Assembly: GCA_945865815.1 (NCBI GenBank)
Contig: CAMBFR010000017.1
Coordinates: 1 to 51,918, forward strand
Direction of reading: 5' to 3'
Origin: Candidatus Sulfopaludibacter sp. SbA3
GTDB taxonomy: Bacteria; Acidobacteriota; Terriglobia; 20CM-2-55-15
DNA length: 51,918 nt
Shown here in pieces: positions 8,647 to 47,312 of this stretch; position 1 is the first letter of the stretch, and each line of letters opens with the position of its first letter. The position numbers and the translations under genes were made by a program. Under the pieces are notes generated by a model that was not told where the DNA came from, did not search any database, and saw nothing but the letters and a program-made list of their open reading frames with translations.

Positions 8647-8726
8647 GGAAGAAAAAAGAAAAGGGGACAGACTCCGAATTCCTGAACTACGGAATTCGGA
8701 GTCTGTCCCCTTTTCTTTTTTCTTCC
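8647..8726. repeat. Long perfect palindrome 1 (GGGGACAGACTCC group), likely bidirectional terminator
   Basis: Arms of 36 nt (8647-8682 and 8691-8726) pair without mismatch around an 8-nt loop, TGAACTAC. The inner stem reads GGGGACAGACTCCGAATTCC and the outer stem GGAAGAAAAAAGAAAA. It fills nearly all of the 89 bp between two convergent stop codons and has a T-rich side in both directions, so it can act as a terminator for both genes. The inner 19 nt also occur in the palindrome at 27707-27768. Confidence 0.9.
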
Positions 8727-13753: not shown

Positions 13754-13829
13754 AAAAAATGGGGTCTGACGGGTGAATTCCATTTTTCTTGTTTGAAAAA
13801 GGGAATTCACCCGTCAGACCCCATTTTTT
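13754..13829. repeat. Long perfect palindrome 2 (GGGGTCTGAC group), likely bidirectional terminator
   Basis: Arms of 28 nt (13754-13781 and 13802-13829) pair perfectly; the apex adds a TTTTT/AAAAA pairing after one mismatch. The stem reads AAAAAATGGGGTCTGACG then GGTGAATTCC. It begins 16 nt after the cytochrome stop and overlaps the stop codon of the convergent ankyrin gene. Its layout (four G, then a GAC, then GAATTCC at the apex) parallels palindromes 1 and 3. Confidence 0.9.
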
Positions 13830-24177: not shown

Positions 24178-24223
24178 GTAGCCCCGCGCCCACAGGTAGA
24201 CTTGAAAAGTTTGGCTGTAGAGT

Positions 24224-25090
24224 CTATTTCCCGAAGGTGGCGTCCAGAAATTCGCTGACGACCTGCGCTACATCGCGACGCTCGCCATCGACGGCGTAGT
24301 TGAGCCGCCGCATCGCAGGTTCCGAGATTTTGCCGCCCAACTCCCGAAGAGCCTCGCGAACTTCCGGATGCTTCAACACGATCTCGTGTCGTATAACTGG
24401 GGCGGCGTCGTAAGGCGGAAAGTAACTCTTGTCGTCCTCCAACGCGAAGAGGCCGAGGCTCTCGATCAGGCCGGCTGTCGAGTCGCCTGCGATGAAGTCA
24501 ACCTGCCCATCCGCCAGCGCCCTGTACGTGAGCCCGAGGTCCATAACTCGCGGTTCATCCGGAAACTGAAGGTTGTACGCCTGGCTCAGTCCGCGATAGC
24601 CGTCGGAACGTTCCATGAACTCGTAGCCGAAACCAGCGGTCCAATCGCGCGTCAACGGCGCGCTGTCGGAAATCGTCCTGAGGTTGAACTTCGCCGCATC
24701 TCCGGCGCGCACGATAATCGCAAAAGTGTTGTTGAAACCCAGCGGCTCGGTCCAGTCCACGGCGAATCGGGCCGCGTAGTCGGTCTTGACCTTTTCGTAT
24801 ACCTGGTTGGAATCGTTCATCGGCTGTGCGCCAAGAATCGCAGTGAGGCCGGTTCCCGTGTATTCCGGGTAAATGTCGATCTGGCCCGCAACGATCGCCT
24901 GGTGACACACGAGGGTTCCGCCAAGATTCAGCCGCCGGTCCACTTCCAGGCCGGTGCGGCGTTCAATCTGCTGTGCGAACAGTTCGCCAAGAATCACCTG
25001 CTCCGTGAAGTTCTTCGAGCCGATGACGATGCGGTCGGAAGAGGAACAGGCCGTCAGTAGAAATGAAGCGGCCAGAACGATGCGTTTCAT
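24224..25090 (-). CDS. Lipoprotein substrate-binding subunit of an osmoprotectant ABC transporter
   Basis: A 288-residue protein with a lipoprotein signal ([13 protein letters not shown], lipobox LTAC). The mature start [20 protein letters not shown] is the signature of the OsmF/OpuCC type of glycine betaine, choline or carnitine binding proteins. [17 protein letters not shown] near 75 is the second landmark, and [20 protein letters not shown] with [16 protein letters not shown] follow. Tyr and other aromatic residues in these segments usually form the cage for a quaternary amine. The start overlaps the permease stop by 4 nt. It is the third gene of the transporter operon. The substrate is likely a compatible solute, but which one is open. 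Confidence 0.92.
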
Positions 25091-25719
25091 ATGCGGCCCA
25101 GCCTCTTCTCTACCGCGCCCAAACCCACATCGGCTGCCAGCGCCAGCACCGCTGCGGGAATAGCTCCCGCCAGAATCAGTCGGCTATCGACCATGGACAC
25201 ACCCCTGAAGATAAACATTCCCAACCCACCGGCTCCAACAGCCGCAGCAATCGTTGCCACACCGACGGCAACTACCGTGGCAATGCGAATGCCCGCAAAA
25301 ATGACTCCCATGGCGAGCGGTAGTTCCACCTGCCAGAGCAATTGATTATCGGTCATTCCCATTCCGCGGCCGGCCTCGCGAATCGCGGGATCGACGCCGG
25401 AAATTCCAGTGAACGTGTTCCGAATGATCGGCAACAACGAATAGAGAACGAGCGCCACGATTGCGGTGCGCGCCCCGATACCGCCGATGAATGGAATCGG
25501 AATCAGAAAACCAAACAAGGCCAGGCTCGGGATCGTCTGTACCACGTTTGCAAAAACGAGCACGGGCCGCGACAGCCGCGGCTTTCGCGTCATCAGGATT
25601 CCCACAGGCAATCCGATGGCGAGCGCGATAGCCATTGAAACACCCACAAGGAAGATGTGCTCGATCGTGAGTTGCAATACCTGATTCCGGTTCGTCCACA
25701 TGACCTCAAAGATATTCAT
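25087..25719 (-). CDS. Permease subunit of the osmoprotectant ABC transporter
   Basis: A 210-residue membrane protein with about five or six helices, normal for OpuBB/OpuCB permeases. Landmarks are QLTIEHIFLVGVSMAIALAI at the start, VVQTIPSLALFGFLIP near 70, and the EAA-type cytoplasmic loop DPAIREAGRGMGMTDNQLLW near 125, which docks to the ATPase. ATIAAAVGAGGLGMFIFRG follows. It lies between the ATPase gene (44 nt upstream, with a REP-like element in the gap) and the binding-protein gene (4 nt overlap). No second permease gene is visible, so it probably forms a homodimer. Confidence 0.92.
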   Translation of the reverse strand: MNIFEVMWTNRNQVLQLTIEHIFLVGVSMAIALAIGLPVGILMTRKPRLSRPVLVFANVVQTIPSLALFGFLIPIPFIGGIGARTAIVALVLYSLLPIIRNTFTGISGVDPAIREAGRGMGMTDNQLLWQVELPLAMGVIFAGIRIATVVAVGVATIAAAVGAGGLGMFIFRGVSMVDSRLILAGAIPAAVLALAADVGLGAVEKRLGRI

Positions 25720-25728
25720 ATTTTTACT

Positions 25729-25765
25729 GGCTGCGCCCTATCGGGCTTGCATTCGCAGCCGCTCA
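25729..25765 (-). repeat. 37-bp REP-like element, copy 1
   Basis: Read on the minus strand it begins TGAGCGGCTGCGAATGCAAG and ends GCCCGATAGGGCGCAGCC. GGCTGCG pairs with CGCAGCC, and inside it GCCC-GATA-GGGC forms a second small hairpin. It supplies the TGA stop of the ATPase gene and ends 9 nt before the permease ATG. An identical copy lies at 26504-26540. Confidence 0.8.
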
Positions 25766-26494
25766 TGAGTAGCTCTCCACAAAGGCTTTCGCTTCGGGAT
25801 GGTCCAGTTTCCTGAAATCGCCCGCCGGCAAGAGCGCAAGTAACTTCCCATCCTTCATCAGGCCGATTCGTTTACCCAGAAGGAACGCTTCGCGGACGTC
25901 GTGGGTCACAAACACGATTGTCTTTTCGAGCCGCTTCTGCAGGTCACGAAACTCCTTCTGGATCTCGGAGCGCGTAATCGGATCGAGCGCGCCGAACGGC
26001 TCGTCGAGCAGGAGAATCGGCGGATCCGCGGCAAGAGCGCGCGCCACGCCGACACGCTGGCGCTCTCCGCCCGAGAGTTGACGCGGAAATCGCTTTGCGA
26101 AATCGGCCGGAGGGAGTCCCACCAACTCCAGCATTTCGTGAACCCGGCTCCGGATTCTTTCCCCGGTCCAGGACTCGAGCGATGGAACCAGCGCGATGTT
26201 GCGCTCAACGGTGAAATGAGGAAAAAGCCCGGCGTCCTGGATGACGTATCCAATGTGCCGTCGAAGCCGGATCGGATCCCATTCCCCGGTGCTCTTTCCT
26301 TCGACAAACACCTCTCCGGCGGTCGGATCGAGAAGCCGGTTGATCAACTTGAGCGTGGTTGTTTTTCCCGAACCGCTGCGTCCCAATATGACGACGGTCT
26401 CATTACGCTCGAGTTCGAACGAGATATCGTGAACGAGATTGCGGCCACCGGCGACGGTGTAGCGCACGTTCCGGAATGCGATTGTGGAATCCAT
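25763..26494 (-). CDS. ATP-binding subunit of the osmoprotectant ABC transporter
   Basis: A 243-residue cytosolic ATPase with all motor motifs: Walker A GRSGSGKTT (38-46), Q-loop YVIQDAGLFPHFTV near 88, signature LSGGERQRVGVARAL near 145, Walker B ILLLDEPFGALDP near 165 and the switch His in FVTHDVREAF near 200. It lacks the CBS domains that regulate OpuA/OpuC ATPases, since it ends shortly after LLPAGDF. It is the first gene of the three-gene operon; a REP-like copy lies directly upstream and another at its stop. Osmotic control cannot be seen in the sequence. Confidence 0.93.
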   Translation of the reverse strand: MDSTIAFRNVRYTVAGGRNLVHDISFELERNETVVILGRSGSGKTTTLKLINRLLDPTAGEVFVEGKSTGEWDPIRLRRHIGYVIQDAGLFPHFTVERNIALVPSLESWTGERIRSRVHEMLELVGLPPADFAKRFPRQLSGGERQRVGVARALAADPPILLLDEPFGALDPITRSEIQKEFRDLQKRLEKTIVFVTHDVREAFLLGKRIGLMKDGKLLALLPAGDFRKLDHPEAKAFVESYS

Positions 26495-26503
26495 TGTTTT
26501 AAT

Positions 26504-26540
26504 GGCTGCGCCCTATCGGGCTTGCATTCGCAGCCGCTCA
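26504..26540 (-). repeat. 37-bp REP-like element, copy 2
   Basis: Identical over 37 nt to the copy at 25729-25765 and in the same orientation. It lies in the 92-bp divergent spacer between the ABC ATPase gene and alr, 9 nt upstream of the ATPase start. Confidence 0.85.
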
Positions 26541-26586
26541 TCTTGAATAGCCGTGGATTTAATCATACATATGGAATAATCCACAC

Positions 26587-27735
26587 ATGCTGTCTTGGGT
26601 GGAAGCAGACACAGCGCGCATACGCGCGAATATCACTGCGTTTCGGGATCTCGTGGCGCCGGGAACGGAAATAATGGTCGTCGTCAAGGCCAACGCGTAC
26701 GGCCATGGATTGAACATGGTTGCACCGGTTGCCGCCGAGGGCGGAAATTGGCTCGGCGTTAATTGCGTGGACGAGGCCAGCGCGATCACGAAGCTCGGTA
26801 TCGCGAATCGCATCTTGATACTCGGCCACACAATACCGGCGGAAGCCGGAATTGCGGTCAAAAACGGGTATCGCCAGGTTCTTTATCGCCTGGATGTCGC
26901 CCAGGCCCTGTCGAACGCGGCGCAAAACCTGAATGCGGCCGCACACGTTCACCTCAAGATCGAAACCGGAACGAACCGCCAGGGAGTCGCGGCCGCGGAT
27001 CTCGAGAACTTCGTGCGGACCATACTGAAACTTCCGGGCCTGAAGATCGAAGGCGCCTATACCCATTTTGCCAATATCGAAGACACGCTGGATCCTTCCT
27101 TCGCCCAAATGCAGCTCGACCGGTTCAAAGAGGCCATGGCCGTCCTCGATCGTCTTGGTGTCCGTCCTGAACATGTCCATGCCGCGGCGACGGCAGGCGC
27201 ACTTCTGTATCCCGAAACGAACTTCTCGATGGTCCGCATTGGAATTGGCGCCTACGGGATATGGCCGTCTCGCGAAACGCAACTCGCGGCCCGCGAACGA
27301 GGGCGGCAGATCGCCCTATCGCCGGCGTTGACCTGGAAAACGCGCGTCGCCCAGATAAAGAAGGTTGGCGCGGGAGACTATGTCGGCTATGGACTTTCAT
27401 ACCAGGCGGGCCGGCCCATGCTGGTGGCGGTGTTGCCGGTGGGCTACTACGACGGCTACGACCGGAGACTTTCGAATTCCGGACGTGTATTGGTCAATGG
27501 CCAGGCAGTCCCGGTAATCGGCCGTGTTGCGATGAACATGACGATGATCGACGTCACCGACGCCGCCGCAAACGTCGACGACGAAGTGGTATTGCTGGGC
27601 CGCCAGGGAAACGCCGAAATCCGGGCGGAAGAGGTGGCCGAAAAGGCGGGAACCATTCCCTACGAAGTGCTCTCGAGAATCAATCCTCTATTGCCACGAT
27701 TGAGGGGAGATGTGGGGACAGACTCCGAATTCTGA
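26587..27735 (+). CDS. alr: Alanine racemase
   Basis: A 382-residue PLP enzyme converting L-alanine to D-alanine for peptidoglycan. The PLP lysine is in VVVKANAYGHG (Lys34). HLKIETGTNRQG near 122, YTHFANIED near 158 and FSMVRIGIGAYG near 218 are standard. The C-terminal domain carries the catalytic Tyr region VGYGLSYQAG near 268 and GRVAMNMTMIDVTD near 313, where most Alr have GRVCMDQ. The last nine residues, GDVGTDSEF and the preceding codons, are encoded by the palindrome at 27707-27768, and the stop lies in its loop, so the natural C-terminus has probably been replaced. No ribosome site is evident before the ATG. Confidence 0.94.
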   Translation: MLSWVEADTARIRANITAFRDLVAPGTEIMVVVKANAYGHGLNMVAPVAAEGGNWLGVNCVDEASAITKLGIANRILILGHTIPAEAGIAVKNGYRQVLYRLDVAQALSNAAQNLNAAAHVHLKIETGTNRQGVAAADLENFVRTILKLPGLKIEGAYTHFANIEDTLDPSFAQMQLDRFKEAMAVLDRLGVRPEHVHAAATAGALLYPETNFSMVRIGIGAYGIWPSRETQLAARERGRQIALSPALTWKTRVAQIKKVGAGDYVGYGLSYQAGRPMLVAVLPVGYYDGYDRRLSNSGRVLVNGQAVPVIGRVAMNMTMIDVTDAAANVDDEVVLLGRQGNAEIRAEEVAEKAGTIPYEVLSRINPLLPRLRGDVGTDSEF

Positions 27736-27768
27736 AGTTCGTGAATTCGGAGTCTGTCCCCACATCTC
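27707..27768. repeat. Long perfect palindrome 3 (GGGGACAGACTCC group) overlapping the alr 3' end
   Basis: Arms of 26 nt (27707-27732 and 27743-27768) pair perfectly around a 10-nt loop, TGAAGTTCGT. The inner stem GGGGACAGACTCCGAATTC is identical to palindrome 1, but the outer stem (GAGATGT) is different. The alr stop codon is the TGA of the loop and the convergent gene's stop overlaps the right arm. Confidence 0.92.
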
Positions 27769-30700
27769 ATTGCCGCCGTAGTTCGACGTTTGAAATTGAG
27801 ACCGTCCGCGGAAAGCTGCCCGTCACTGAACCGTTGTTGGTGGTTTGGAAGGTTCTCGAAATTGTTATCGACGATGCAGTGACGGTGTCGCCACTGCGCC
27901 TGCCTGTAAAGGTCATCGTGTAGGGCCGGTCCGTACTCTGATCGGAAAAAGTGCCGGTAATATTTTGATCCGTCCCCGATGCCGAACCCTGTAGCACCGG
28001 AGAGGAAGAACCACTCGTACAGCTTCCACCGGGCACCGTGGAAGAAGCAGGCGTTGTATTCACAGTGGCGGGAATACGGGCCGATCCGCTGATTGTTCCA
28101 TCACTGCTTGTAGTCAGCGTCAGAGTAATTGCGCCCGACATCCTCGAGGTGAAGATACAACCGAGCGTCGGTTCCGTGAAACTCGGGAATGAGGCGCTGA
28201 ATGATCCGGTGTAAGTGAGGGTCTGGCTCGCCTCAAACGTCGCAGTAACTGTCTTGTTGCCGTCCATCGTCAGCGTGCAAGAGCCGGTCCCGCTGCACGA
28301 GCCGGACCAGCCGGTAAATCTGGAGCCGCTCGCTGCAGTCGCCGTCAGAGTAACCTGAACGCGATCCTGGAAAGTCCCGGTGCACGTGACGCCGCAAGCG
28401 ATACCAGTCGGAGTGGAAGCGACGGTGCCGGTTCCGGCGCCCGACTTCGTTACCGTGAGCGTCCGGGTGGTGGTGGTCGTGCCGCTGTTGACGGACAGCC
28501 CCACGGCCCGGATGACCCGCTCGTCGCACTCGAGCGCGGTATGCTCGAGCGCAAATGTGAGCGCGTTCTTGACGTTCAGACCCGAATTCTCGCCGCGAGC
28601 GCTCGGGCCATTCACGATGCTGTCCTGCTGACTGCTGTCGAACAGCCAGCCATTCCATAGGGAACGAATATCCGTTCCGGTCCACTCCGGAAGAAGAGAG
28701 CCGCCTGTACCGGCGACGGCCGTGACGGCGGTTTCTCTATGGTTTTGGTTCAGCTGATCCCGGGCCCGGGCGAGATTTCCGCTTGTGCCGCTTGTTGTCG
28801 TCAGGTCGCGTAAGAAGGGCGCGGCCATACCGATCGCTTTACGGAGCGGCATCGCCAGAGAGTCCGGTACTTGTCTTAGCTTCAGTGCACCAGGGCAAGT
28901 CGAACTAACCGTGTTATACGCAAGCCATGCCAGAACCTGCTCTCCTTTATCTGCCGCGGTTGTTCCAGTCAGAGGACTCCCCAGCGTGACGAGATTGTTG
29001 ACCTGAATTCCGCTTTGCGTTTGCGCCAGCCCGGAGACCGCGACCGGACCGCCTTCGCTGTGGGCTTCGACTACAGCGTTGGTGATTCCGTACGTCGTGG
29101 CGAGCGAATCCAGGAATGCAGCCAGCGACGCGCCGCTATCGTTAATTCCCTTCGTCCAGTCGTAGTTGAACCCGACGACTTGCTCGCAACCGTTTGCTGT
29201 CCCAATGCGGCTGGTACAGTCACTGCCCTCGGAAAACGCGTCCTCGACCCGGCTCAACATTCCATGGACCAGAACACAGGTCTTGACGCCACGCTTAAGG
29301 CTCACTGTCGGACTGTCCATCGCAAGCCACGTCCGGGATGCCGCATCCCATATCCTTCCTCCATATCGCACGGGATAGGTTGGGAGCAGGCGGTTCCAGG
29401 TAACGTTGCCCATGTTGACTGTGTATGAGGAGTCTTCAGCGCTTTGGCTGGTGAAATTGACCAGGTAAGCCGGCACGAGCGTCGCGCTCGCTGTGGATCC
29501 GGGTAGCGCCGTGAACATGCCGATGTTGGATTGAACTTTTGCCTGAGGCGGCTCAACCTCCGCGAGTTGAACATAGCTATCGGGGTCGGTTGGAAGTGAG
29601 CTCGTGATGATGTTTACCTGAATCCCCGGGGAGAGCTCATTTGCAGCCGCGCGCTCCGCGCTCAGTGCCGATGTCTGCCCCGGGTTGGCCGCACCGCGCG
29701 GGAATGTGATCGAAATCGCCGGTCCGACACTGCTCAGCAGTCCGCTGGGAACCTGTCTCGGCATTGCCGGGAGCAGGGAAACAGTCACGCGTTGATCGTT
29801 TTTCAGAAAACCGGGCGGAATCACGACAGTGCTCCCACCCGGCAGAGCGATTGTCCCGCCGAGTGCGGCCTGAATCGGCTGCGTCACCGATTCGATTTCC
29901 TGCCACGTCGCAAGATCCATGCTCAGGGAAGCGCCCTGCTGCGTGTAGAAGCTGAGGGCGCCACTCGCCGATGCGTTGCCCGCGCCGAACAGAACGAACT
30001 CCATCTGCAGGCCGCCTCCGATTGCGAAGTGAGGAAATACCATTTCCGTGGAAGGAGCCCCAGCGTCTTCGGGTGCGGGTGCGGTTGTGGTCATCAGGAA
30101 CTCGTTTCTCTCGTTGTACCGCGTGCGCAATCCGACCATCGCGAAGCAACACGGCCCCGATGCGCGCAAGACTCCACGGAACGGCCGTGGCACGTTCTCA
30201 AAACCCGGAATGTCGTTGAGAAATGCGGCTGTCTTGCCGTTGGCCGGAACAGCAATCCGCGCCGTGTATCCGGTGGATGCTCCGGCCGTGGTCGTCAGGG
30301 ATAAGTCCACCGTCATTGCAGAACCAGTCGAGGCAATCGCCAGCGCAGTTTGAATACCCGTGGAGAGCTCCGCGTACATCCGGAATGCCTGTCTTGCGCG
30401 GATCGCCTCAACGCCGGCTTCCGTGACGGTAAATCCTGCGGTGTTGTACGCAAAGATTGCGGTGCCGGCCGGCGCCGCGTTGCCGGCGTCCGGCTCAATC
30501 GCGATACGCCCTGAAACCAAAGTCCCCGACAACCCACTGGTCTGAACCTGAAAGCCCGAGGCTGGAGCGATGCGATAGGTAAAGCTCGCGCCCGAGCAAG
30601 CCGTGCTGCAAAAAGGCCCTGTGACGCTGATCGCTACCGGGTTTCCCGAAGCGTCAGTCCATCGGACACGTCCCGTAATTGTGCTATCGGTCGGATTGAT

Positions 30701-32350
30701 CAGAATGAGTTGGGTCTTCGACCCATTGCCATCGGCAAATTGCGAGATGTACAACGGTTCGGTCACTGATGTTGGAACTTCCACGACAGGCAATGTCGAT
30801 ATGAGAAATTCGGAACGCGGCGCCTGATTCGTCAATCCGCGTATGGCAAGCGCGGCTACCGGAGCCGAAGCCGTAAACGTCAACGTTCCCTGCAGCGACG
30901 AAGGACCATGAAACGGGTCAGCGTTCAGAAAGGCTGAGATCTGGCCGTTCGGCGGGATGGTCGTGCTTCCGCTTTGGACATTTCTGCCGGCCAGCGAATC
31001 GTTAAAAACAAAACTGATCGAGACCGTCTGGTCGTTTGGATTGGCAATGGCCAATCCCGTATTCACAGGTCCATTGATTTCGGCAAAAATCCGCCCCGAT
31101 CGAATCAATTTCGCAGCAGGTATCGCCGCTTCGCTGATAAGAACGTTGTTCTGGCGTATTCCGAAAATTGCCAGGCCGGCGGGAACCGCTTGCCCGCTGT
31201 TGGCCCGAATTCGCCCATATCCGATGGTCATGGTGTTCGGCATTGTTGTCGTTGCCAGCCAGCGGCCGCCTGAACTGGGGATATCGAATGTAACTGTGCC
31301 GGCGCCGGTTTGCGGCGCCGGCTCGGTGGGAGCGGTTTCGGAACCGAGCGCTTCGAGGCTGGTCAGGTGGCTTGCGGGATCGTAAGGCGACCCAGTGAAC
31401 CCCCCGAAGGCATACAGCACGTTGCCGACGGCAGCGGCGCCCGCATTTGTTCGAACCGAGTTCAGCGGCGGCATGTCCGACCAACTGTTGGTTGCCGGGC
31501 TATATGCAAGCACCGACGCAAGCACTTGCTCATTATTTCCGCCGATCACATAGATGATGCCGTTCACGGCGACGGCGGCTACCGCCGTGCGAGCGGCAGG
31601 CATGGGAGCCAACAGCGTCCATGTGTTTGCCGCGGGGTCATATACTTCGGCGGACGCGAGGTTCACCGGAGTGCTGGCGGAGTAGTCGATGCCGCCGAAT
31701 ACATACAGACGGTCATTCAAGTCAGCCACGGCAGCCCCGGTACGGCTCACGCGCATCGATGCCTTGACGCTCCAGGTATTGGCGGCAATATCGTAGGCCT
31801 CGACGAGCTTCCCGCTGTTGCCGCCGCCACCCACGGCATAGAGAATGCCATTTACAACGCCGACGCCGTGTGCGGTCCGCGCCGTCGGCATCTCCCGCAG
31901 CGACGCCCACGTGTTCGTGACGGGATCATAGACTTCGTTTGCGCCCGTCAGGGGGCCGCAACCGGTGCTCCCGCCGACGGCATACAACTTTCCACTCCAG
32001 GCGCCTGCCTTCAGATTCTCTCGTGCAGTCGGCATGGCTGCCAGCGGACTCCACACGTCGGCCGCCGGGTTATATACCTCCACCGTATTCAGGTAGGCGC
32101 ACAGATAGCCGGCGTTCCAGCCGCCGAGAGCGTATATCCGCCCGTTCACGACGCCATAACCAGGTGCGGTTCGCGCCGTGAGCATGGGCCCCTTATAGGC
32201 CCAGGCCGTTGCCGTTGAGCCGGCGTGCACGGGCTTCTGTGTGACGGTGACCGCGATGAGGACCAGCGCAGTCAGGACAAGAAGCGCCCGACGCTGTACG
32301 TGCGCGGTCCACACGCTCTTATGCAATAGGAACCACAAATAATTCCTCAC
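27767..32350 (-). CDS. Giant secreted kelch/lipase-like multi-domain protein
   Basis: A 1527-residue protein begun at GTG 32350; a basic N-terminus and a hydrophobic helix (LLVLTALVLIAVTVT) form a signal. Residues 50-340 are about six kelch repeats (IYALGGWN, LYAVGG, VYDPAANTWTLLAPMPAAR), so a beta propeller. Residues 380-900 hold repeated sandwich modules (GRIFAEINGPVNTGLAIAN). An alpha/beta hydrolase follows: CVLVHGML near 1020 and EAHSEGGPVAV near 1092, where the nucleophile elbow is AHSEG instead of GxSxG, as in Bacillus LipA-type lipases. An InlB-like bacterial repeat (GWSGSCSGTGSCTLTMDGNK) near 1355 precedes a C-terminal domain. It probably acts outside the cell. Alternative in-frame starts exist. 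Confidence 0.82.
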   Translation of the reverse strand: MRNYLWFLLHKSVWTAHVQRRALLVLTALVLIAVTVTQKPVHAGSTATAWAYKGPMLTARTAPGYGVVNGRIYALGGWNAGYLCAYLNTVEVYNPAADVWSPLAAMPTARENLKAGAWSGKLYAVGGSTGCGPLTGANEVYDPVTNTWASLREMPTARTAHGVGVVNGILYAVGGGGNSGKLVEAYDIAANTWSVKASMRVSRTGAAVADLNDRLYVFGGIDYSASTPVNLASAEVYDPAANTWTLLAPMPAARTAVAAVAVNGIIYVIGGNNEQVLASVLAYSPATNSWSDMPPLNSVRTNAGAAAVGNVLYAFGGFTGSPYDPASHLTSLEALGSETAPTEPAPQTGAGTVTFDIPSSGGRWLATTTMPNTMTIGYGRIRANSGQAVPAGLAIFGIRQNNVLISEAAIPAAKLIRSGRIFAEINGPVNTGLAIANPNDQTVSISFVFNDSLAGRNVQSGSTTIPPNGQISAFLNADPFHGPSSLQGTLTFTASAPVAALAIRGLTNQAPRSEFLISTLPVVEVPTSVTEPLYISQFADGNGSKTQLILINPTDSTITGRVRWTDASGNPVAISVTGPFCSTACSGASFTYRIAPASGFQVQTSGLSGTLVSGRIAIEPDAGNAAPAGTAIFAYNTAGFTVTEAGVEAIRARQAFRMYAELSTGIQTALAIASTGSAMTVDLSLTTTAGASTGYTARIAVPANGKTAAFLNDIPGFENVPRPFRGVLRASGPCCFAMVGLRTRYNERNEFLMTTTAPAPEDAGAPSTEMVFPHFAIGGGLQMEFVLFGAGNASASGALSFYTQQGASLSMDLATWQEIESVTQPIQAALGGTIALPGGSTVVIPPGFLKNDQRVTVSLLPAMPRQVPSGLLSSVGPAISITFPRGAANPGQTSALSAERAAANELSPGIQVNIITSSLPTDPDSYVQLAEVEPPQAKVQSNIGMFTALPGSTASATLVPAYLVNFTSQSAEDSSYTVNMGNVTWNRLLPTYPVRYGGRIWDAASRTWLAMDSPTVSLKRGVKTCVLVHGMLSRVEDAFSEGSDCTSRIGTANGCEQVVGFNYDWTKGINDSGASLAAFLDSLATTYGITNAVVEAHSEGGPVAVSGLAQTQSGIQVNNLVTLGSPLTGTTAADKGEQVLAWLAYNTVSSTCPGALKLRQVPDSLAMPLRKAIGMAAPFLRDLTTTSGTSGNLARARDQLNQNHRETAVTAVAGTGGSLLPEWTGTDIRSLWNGWLFDSSQQDSIVNGPSARGENSGLNVKNALTFALEHTALECDERVIRAVGLSVNSGTTTTTRTLTVTKSGAGTGTVASTPTGIACGVTCTGTFQDRVQVTLTATAASGSRFTGWSGSCSGTGSCTLTMDGNKTVTATFEASQTLTYTGSFSASFPSFTEPTLGCIFTSRMSGAITLTLTTSSDGTISGSARIPATVNTTPASSTVPGGSCTSGSSSPVLQGSASGTDQNITGTFSDQSTDRPYTMTFTGRRSGDTVTASSITISRTFQTTNNGSVTGSFPRTVSISNVELRRQ

Positions 32351-32524
32351 GGCAGTACTGTTCGCAACTCCTTAGCCGAACTCCATAGCCAGCCTGTGTC
32401 AGCGATTTAGCCGGAAAGCAGCAAGCCGGTAGTTGAACGATTAGTCATAAGACCAGCCTGAAAGCGGGGGCGCGCTGTCATTGTGTCCGGCGAGTGAGGA
32501 CAGAACAGCGGTCTCGGCGAGTGG

Positions 32525-32590
32525 GAGAATTAAGGTGACGTTGATCGAATTCCTGAAGTGCGGAATTCGATCAACGTCTCCCTAATTCTC
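32525..32590. repeat. Long palindrome 4 (GACGTTGATC stem, GAATTCC apex)
   Basis: Arms of 29 nt (32525-32553 and 32562-32590) pair at 27 positions around an 8-nt loop, TGAAGTGC. The apex GAATTCC-loop-GGAATTC is that of palindrome 1 (loop TGAACTAC), but the stem below it is unrelated. It ends 2 nt from the stop of the minus-strand MBL gene, so it may terminate that transcript; the rest of the 242-bp spacer shows nothing. Confidence 0.88.
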
Positions 32591-32592
32591 CG

Positions 32593-33507
32593 TTACAGCC
32601 GGGGCTCGCCGCGCGGGTTTGCCTGCAGCTCGTCGAAGAGATTGCCGAAGAAGCCGGCGTTGAAATTCCAGCCAAGGTCGTCCTGCTTGACCTGCGACAT
32701 CAGGGTCTCCTTGGTCGCGCCTTTGCCCACGGCATCCTTTACTCGAGTCATGAACGTGTCCCACTTCCCTTTGAAGGCCTGGACTTCCGCCCGGGTCATC
32801 GGACCGCCGCGACCGGCGATGGCCACATCCCAATCCAGTTTCAGCATGCTGTCGAGCAGGCCCGGCACCTGGACCGCGCTGCCGCCGTTACCGCCAAAAC
32901 CGATGCCCGGCGTCGGATTCGCAACGGGAACGGTGTCGGAAACCATGATGAATCTTTTATCGGGCATGTACACCACGGTATCGCCGCCCGTGTGGCTGGC
33001 GCCGTAGAAGTGAGCGTCGACAGTGGCGCCGCCGAACTTCAGGGAGTAATCCTTCGGAAACGTGACCGTCGGCGGACCGGCAATGTCCTTCGTTCTCTGG
33101 TCGGTGGTCATGAGCTGCTTCATCTTCTCGAGGCCGACGACTGTAGCGCCCTGAGCCACGAATGTCTGGTTGTTGCCGGTGTGGTCGGGATGATGATGGG
33201 TATTCAAGACGTACTTCACGGGCAGATTTGAAATGGACTTGATCTGTTCGACCAGGGCGGCGGCAATCTCGGCGCCCGGGTTCTTCGTGTCGATCAGGAT
33301 CAATCCTTCGGGCGTGACTCGAATGACGGCATTCGCGCCGGCGCCGGGAACATAGTAAAGGTCCGGCTTGAGTTGAACGGCCTTCTCGACCGGATCGGGC
33401 GCCGCTGCGCCACCAGCGCCGCCCCGCTGCGCCAGAGCGGGAGCGGCAACGATCGCCAGACAGGACACGGCGACGAGTGCAAGAGCAATTAGTCTGTTAT
33501 GGAACAT
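32593..33507 (-). CDS. Secreted MBL-fold metallohydrolase
   Basis: A 304-residue exported protein with AAGGAGG 4 nt before the ATG. A signal peptide ends near PALAQ, followed by a Gly/Ala-rich stretch. The metallo-beta-lactamase fold is shown by NTHHHPDHTGNN near 120 (HxHxDH metal site), YGASHTGGDTVVYMPDKRF near 175 with the third His, and FIMVSDTVP with the bridging Asp. A final His comparable to that of B3 enzymes is not obvious; AGRGGPMTRAEV occupies the place where many environmental members of this type have GHG, so a metal ligand may be lost. The role is unknown. It lies alone, with a palindrome at its 3' end. Confidence 0.87.
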   Translation of the reverse strand: MFHNRLIALALVAVSCLAIVAAPALAQRGGAGGAAAPDPVEKAVQLKPDLYYVPGAGANAVIRVTPEGLILIDTKNPGAEIAAALVEQIKSISNLPVKYVLNTHHHPDHTGNNQTFVAQGATVVGLEKMKQLMTTDQRTKDIAGPPTVTFPKDYSLKFGGATVDAHFYGASHTGGDTVVYMPDKRFIMVSDTVPVANPTPGIGFGGNGGSAVQVPGLLDSMLKLDWDVAIAGRGGPMTRAEVQAFKGKWDTFMTRVKDAVGKGATKETLMSQVKQDDLGWNFNAGFFGNLFDELQANPRGEPRL

Positions 33508-39096: not shown

Positions 39097-39121
39097 AAAA
39101 GTCCTCTACCTGCAAAAGTGT

Positions 39122-39225
39122 GCGCGGTCATATGACAAGTGACAAATGAACAGTGAACAATGAGAAAGTTTTCGGGTGCTTTCTCATTGTTCACTGTTCA
39201 TTTGTCACTTGTCATATGACCGCGC
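39122..39225. repeat. Long perfect palindrome 5 (TTTCGGGTG loop group) between hyuA and hyuB
   Basis: Arms of 47 nt (39122-39168 and 39179-39225) pair with no mismatch around the 10-nt loop TTTTCGGGTG. The stem contains GTGACAAATGAACAGTGAAC. The outer part reads GCGCGGTCA. It ends 26 nt before the hyuA stop and 25 nt upstream of the hyuB start, so a strong hairpin would form between two genes of one transcript. Palindrome 6 shares its inner stem and loop. Confidence 0.95.
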
Positions 39226-39251
39226 GCAATCCATCAGGGCCTGCGATACAT

Positions 39252-47212: not shown

Positions 47213-47312
47213 TCCTCTATATGACAAGTGACAAATGAACAGTGAACAATGACAAATGTTTCGGGTGCTTTGTCATTGTTCACTGTTCATTTGTCATTTG
47301 TCATATAGAGGA
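47213..47312. repeat. Long near-perfect palindrome 6 (TTTCGGGTG loop group)
   Basis: Arms of 44 nt (47213-47256 and 47269-47312) pair with one mismatch around a 12-nt loop, TGTTTCGGGTGC. The inner stem and loop match palindrome 5, but the outer stem is TCCTCTATA where palindrome 5 has GCGCGGTCA. It lies between convergent genes, 11 nt from the stop of the metalloprotease gene, and could terminate both. Confidence 0.94.

Follow-up and report, generated by a model that had tools for sequence, protein, structure and literature searches.

The palindromic element that we report here has its closest described counterparts in several repeat systems of bacteria. REPs and REPINs: these are GTAG- or CGTC-tagged palindromes with RAYTs; in the passages of PMC3733652 drawn on here, most convergent REPs lie less than 20 bp from both 3' ends, REP termini often give a TAG stop to the flanking ORFs, and, of the repeats found inside ORFs, slightly more than 10% are placed at the coding end. 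The TIR repeats of the TIRYTs: these feature a transposase between inverted repeats with the motif GGGGWSAS and are, according to another passage of the same paper, found in Acidobacteria (Di Nocera, De Gregorio and Rocco 2013, PMC3733652). The Class 3 TnpA_Y1 hairpins: about 600 of these, with a CnGA foot, are described from Solibacter usitatus in the relevant part of PMC6006769. The Rickettsia palindromic elements (RPE): these are 105-146 bp long and, in the portion of PMC2229807 used here, are described in frame inside conserved proteins. REP termini that give stops and palindromes that are read in frame are, then, both already published kinds of event.

The locus analysed here lies in a window of 51,918 nucleotides from a 4.3-Mb acidobacterial MAG (G000); its main comparator is a sister species of the same genus (G001), also a MAG. 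The window codes for an alanine racemase of 382 residues (alr, 26587-27735, plus strand) with the Pfam domains Ala_racemase_N and Ala_racemase_C, the latter ending at residue 371; 30 PDB sequences of alanine, serine and lysine racemases match it, with E-values up to 1e-40. At its 3' end lies a 62-bp palindrome (27707-27768) formed by two arms of 26 bp each, which are exact reverse complements: the left arm (27707-27732, plus strand), composed of an outer arm GAGATGT and a core GGGGACAGACTCCGAATTC, and the right arm (27743-27768, minus strand), with a 10-nt loop TGAAGTTCGT between them (27733-27742). A sequence-only reading of the window had described the alr frame as running through the left arm to a TGA in the loop and thereby adding GDVGTDSEF, and the ORF and arm coordinates confirm this: the gene ends in ...NPLLPRLRGDVGTDSEF, i.e. 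LLPRLR-GDVGTDSEF, followed by a TGA (27733-27735) with which the loop opens. The nine added codons occupy 27706-27732 on the plus strand, the first base falling one position outside the arm; the predicted C-terminal peptide including these element-derived codons is ...LLPRLRGDVGTDSEF. On the other side, a convergent Kelch-repeat protein of 1527 residues (27767-32350, minus strand) stops at a TGA (27769-27767) that shares two bases with the right arm, so that the overlap described earlier for the stop of this protein also holds. As RNA the alr copy is predicted to fold into a single long stem with a short loop, at -55.7 kcal/mol versus -27.7 (sd 3.6) for shuffled sequence. An ordinary intrinsic (rho-independent) terminator was rejected here: no T-run follows the stem at the alr site, and a search of 27600-27900 on both strands returned 0 terminator-like sites.

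The comparison of Alr C-termini drew on 90 loci, of which 3 were duplicate captures, leaving 87 distinct ones. In 73 of the 87, Alr runs on beyond query residue 373 for at most 3 residues (5 past LLPR), in agreement with the earlier statement that most Alr proteins end a few residues after SRINPLLPR; 3 of the 87 end 4-8 residues past residue 373. Another 11 have unrelated tails of their own of at least 9 residues, so a tail as such is unremarkable. GTDSEF is absent from all 90 loci. Within the family, G009 and G010 have a 21-residue tail of their own, and in seven family genomes without the element at alr the protein ends within 1-3 residues of position 373 (e.g. PRVTSR, PRVLR, PRILKAN, PRILIES and PRTIVPA). 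That related alr genes without the palindrome stop earlier, and that the motif occurs in none of the comparison loci, supports the proposal that the tail was derived from the element.

A separate observation concerns the 3' end of alr in G006 (L012), where alr and a convergent flavin reductase are separated by a palindrome of unrelated sequence (ACACAAAGACACAAAGG...); by reading of the sequence, both genes get a TAA stop from the ends of its arms. The layout is the same as at alr in the window, with a different repeat family.

The 19-nt core has 55 exact matches in G000 and the reversed pattern 0, and hence its abundance is not due to chance. These matches fall into 32 places, 31 of which are whole palindromes with loops of 6, 10 or 12 nt; the place cut by a contig end (L040) was left out of the 31. 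Besides the alr copy, the window itself holds a second one (8647-8726), with longer and different outer arms. Allowing up to two mismatches, the core was found in 7 of 11 family genomes, and G001 has at least 38 element loci, 31 of them counted with both arms and 29 used in the arm test below owing to contig ends. In both MAGs, contig ends frequently coincide with a copy of the element. At two sites in G001 (L037 and L045) both flanks align and the element is absent; a target duplication was looked for at these two sites and none was readable, the sequences differing by tens of bases beyond the core. The palindrome is a dispersed, apparently non-autonomous hairpin of two inverted GGGGACAGACTCCGAATTC arms and a short loop; its form is like that of the terminal inverted repeats of Y1 (HUH) tyrosine transposases, as if the gene had been reduced to the loop.

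Stop codons lie immediately next to these elements, and the flanking genes are often convergent. With genes called by our own crude codon-usage caller rather than taken from annotation (as also in the arm test), G000 has 61 gene-facing sides, 45 of them directed at the 3' end of a gene and 35 of these 45 within 30 nt of the core; the corresponding figures in G001 are 41 of 56 and 38 of 41. Convergent placement is seen at 15/30 elements in G000 and 10/25 in G001, versus 131/776 adjacent pairs in the background (binomial P 3e-5 and 0.005, respectively). Such tight and convergent-biased placement at gene 3' ends would also suit a palindrome that is not mobile and that the host has selected as a two-way terminator or a protector of mRNA 3' ends, with the read-through at alr being incidental; the very stable RNA fold, and outer arms that are compensatory copy by copy, point the same way. 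We consider this unlikely: the core is unchanged at unrelated loci, the element is patchy across the family genomes, L037 and L045 have empty sites in G001, and terminator-like sites are lacking around the alr copy. A search of the literature on mobile elements that target terminators yielded nothing pertinent among the matches listed.

Several other genes end in or at a copy of the element; the names BtuF-like, PLP decarboxylase and rnfD used for them are what we take these genes to be from our own reading of their sequences. At L030 in G000 a BtuF-like protein reads through the whole element (...IIRNSGDRLRILHFRNSESVPGIPR), its orthologue in G001, without the element, ending in IIRGSGLEEKKR. 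A convergent PLP-decarboxylase-like frame ends in ...GEFRGQTPNS at the loop stop of this same element; an orthologue of it was sought in G001 and none was found, so this other flank cannot be polarised. In G001, a membrane-protein-like frame ends in GEIWGQTPNS at L150. Two more cases involve the stop codon itself: the stop of rnfD is AGATAG in G000 without the element and AGATGAGATGTGGGG in G001 with it (TAG to TGA), and that of L041 is GGCTAG in G001 and GGCCTAAAGATCT in G000 (TAG to TAA). As judged from these sequences, the stop codons of rnfD in G001 and L041 in G000 are completed at the edge of the element. The general idea that such elements contribute stops and tails thus holds at L030, rnfD (G001) and L041 (G000). 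In predicted translation, an in-frame repeat that is absent from the orthologues is found in Alr and in the BtuF-like protein of L030.

The history at alr itself can be read from the sister genome. The G001 Alr is 86% identical to that of the window, and its gene is followed by the same palindrome at the same place, with the same orientation, outer arm GAGATGT and frame relation. There, alr ends as LLPRVARS-TAG-GGAGATGTGGGG, with the TAG directly before the element; relatives without the element stop alr at about this position. The junction is CCA CGA GTT GCG CGG TCA TAG GGA GAT GTG in G001 and CCA CGA TTG AGG GGA GAT GTG in the window, the latter being 9 nt shorter. The loop differs as well: that of G001 is CGAAGTCCAG and many copies have CGAAGTTCAG, in the same orientation or as the reverse complement; the TGA of the window needs a C-to-T change at a base that is C in G001 and in most copies. 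Since the orthologous element in G001 sits behind the native stop, the read-through in the window most likely came later, through stop loss; together with the stop positions in the relatives, this favours an element that was first placed behind an intact stop, the stop being lost afterwards. We regard it as quite probable that alr came to read into an adjoining hairpin by losing its stop, and not through an insertion within the gene.

The sequence-only reading had instead taken alr to show that the element can land within a 3' coding end and provide new stops. The first part is unsupported at this gene, as the element in G001 lies behind the native TAG; the second is no general property in the frame of alr and stands at L030, rnfD (G001) and L041, making alr a less direct example than had been thought. 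When the 31 elements of G000 are read on both strands, alr included, a stop in the frame of alr is met in 3/62 reads, and 5/62 element reads in G001 have one; a loop stop in another frame is found in 22/62 and 23/62 reads, respectively. An insertion into the 3' coding end of alr that supplied the stop, with G001 having regained an upstream stop or having received a separate insertion, is distinctly unlikely: landings of this type do occur, since at the BtuF-like gene of L030 the element replaced a coding end, but the identical outer arm, orientation and frame in G001, a TAG at the position where relatives stop, and an alr-frame stop private to few copies all argue against it. Still less likely is an assembly or sequencing error in the window MAG that conceals a native alr stop, for, although sequencing through hairpins is difficult and contig breaks at copies are frequent in both MAGs, the net change of 9 nt keeps to a multiple of three, the loop is unlike that of all other listed copies, and the contig continues for 24 kb beyond, its alr side being colinear with G001.

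For the stop-loss history of alr we propose the following course. The element would have lain outside alr in the ancestor shared by the two species compared, as both genomes suggest. In the window lineage a small local change, with a net loss of 9 nt, would then have removed the native stop; the difference itself is seen in the alignment, and its direction is deduced from one sister genome and more distant relatives, the two assemblies compared being MAGs. Ribosomes would thereafter read the left arm in frame up to the lineage-specific TGA that opens the loop, giving a predicted GDVGTDSEF tail, which is probably a tolerated, neutral by-product. The hairpin is probably carried at the 3' ends of mRNAs, where it may act, the alr copy being without the T-run of a classical terminator; a host role acquired after dispersal is compatible with the stop-loss explanation.

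Beyond the core, the outer arms are copy-specific yet complementary within each copy, as seen in a permutation test on L021-L050 and the window copies (G000) and on L051 and L143-L179 (G001). At arm positions 1-6 the match in G000 (n=31) is 5.81 of 6 within copies versus 3.48 between copies, and in G001 (n=29) 5.38 versus 3.22, with 0/5000 permutations reaching the observed value in each genome. The signal persists at positions 7-12 (0/5000 in G000, 1/5000 in G001) and is unconvincing at positions 13-20 (821/5000 and 162/5000). Orthologous copies (L024/L163; L033/L145) differ in their outer arms, and these remain complementary. Complementary arms of this kind can arise by template switching, a route described in PMC8794818.

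Gene neighbourhoods also change at the elements. With matches of less than 76% identity or under 200 bases dropped (below 75% identity in one further sequence comparison), similarity to G001 covers 24180-27770 of the window and resumes at 33495 on another G001 contig, with a flavin reductase that is the neighbour of alr in relatives. Across the same element alr meets the Kelch gene in the window versus rnfD in G001; in G000, rnfD lies elsewhere, without an element. MAG mis-joins may lie behind such neighbour changes. A full-length Kelch orthologue by which the junction might be dated was sought in G001, and partial matches at 44% were all that it returned. Two side observations belong here. 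The stretch 27771-33494, which holds the Kelch gene and another gene, presumably coding for a beta-lactamase-fold-like protein, has no match in the G001 sequence compared. At L043 (1524-1571) and at 8663-8710 of the window, the right flanks match G001 at L229 (about 3342) and L306 (about 9826). What adjoins these flanks there is a palindrome of a different family, of GGGACAGTG type and either whole or halved where the contig stops; to the left of L043, the G001 sequence compared offers no match. The inverted repeat of the G001 transposase is of this GGGACAGTG-type form.

A joint reading of these data would be that the outer arms are remade by local templated (snap-back or template-switch) copying of adjoining gene ends, that the elements mark rewired junctions, and that two palindrome families share gene-end sites in the two species. 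We offer this tentatively and think it rather doubtful. Were it true, copies would grow perfect, copy-specific arms from host sequence and so come to share host stop codons.

Y1_Tnp genes are present in 9 of the 11 family genomes. There were 12 matched loci, 7 of which were scanned for flanking repeats, and in all 7 the gene lies between inverted repeats of at least 20 nt. These repeats include TAATTCGGGGACAGACGTATAAATCACC (G006), TGGGGACAGTCCCCGAACTC (G008) and AATTCGGGGTCAGACGGGTGAATTCCC (G005), those of L052 and L059 being of other sequence. A Y1_Tnp gene bracketed by the exact alr-type repeat, and with it a cognate autonomous element, was not found among the 7 of 12 loci scanned, where the repeats are similar in form and none is identical. 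The G000 transposase has a repeat of its own that is essentially undispersed, with its two flanks and a single 3-mismatch match as its sole occurrences.

The window has further palindromes of other types. At 13754-13829 lies a second type with GGGGTCTGACGGGTGAATTCCC arms, much like the inverted Y1_Tnp repeats of G005 (L062: GGGGTCAGACGGGTGAATTCCC); from this resemblance it may be a short form of the L062 element. The palindromes at 39119-39228 and 47213-47312 share the inner arm ATATGACAAGTGACAAATGAACAGTGAACAATGA and have different, complementary outer arms, the same arm pattern as in the alr-element family. A 30-nt palindrome (GGAGAATTAAGGTGACGTTGATCGAATTCC) is found at 32524-32591, where it separates the Kelch 5' end from the 3' end of the following gene.

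The alr locus presents a clean two-species case of a mobile hairpin that is found behind a housekeeping gene in one genome and within its predicted protein in the other, most probably by stop loss and not by insertion. The case illustrates how repeats packed at gene ends give rise to composite stop codons and short new C-termini, and it carries a warning for annotation: protein-end tails such as GTDSEF, GQTPNS and GDRLRI...NSESVP in these acidobacteria come from repeats. For tests of templated hairpin growth, the copy-specific arms are natural material.

Among the described systems, the likeness to the TIRYT TIRs is seen in several features: the core opens with GGGGACAG, which fits GGGGWSAS, the repeats are in inverted pairs, the host is acidobacterial, and inverted repeats of comparable form enclose the Y1_Tnp genes of the family. 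In contrast to the TIRYTs, no transposase bracketed by the exact repeat was found at the loci scanned; hence, we liken the way the element works to that of a TIR repeat and stop short of counting it as an established one. The published families were compared with it by motif rather than aligned. The Class 3 TnpA_Y1 hairpins of Solibacter are likewise acidobacterial, of the Y1 transposase type and present in many copies in one genome; that class has, however, a CnGA foot. With REPs and REPINs the element shares its nature as a small palindrome near the 3' ends of convergent genes. It differs from REPs in having, by inspection of the listed copies, no conserved GTAG or CGTC tag beside the core, and from REPINs, which are two inverted hairpin REPs with a spacer, in being one long hairpin with a short loop. 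Like the RPE, it is a palindrome read in frame in a conserved protein; whereas the RPE are 105-146 bp long and lie within genes, the alr element measures 62 bp and was most probably taken up at the C-terminus by stop loss.
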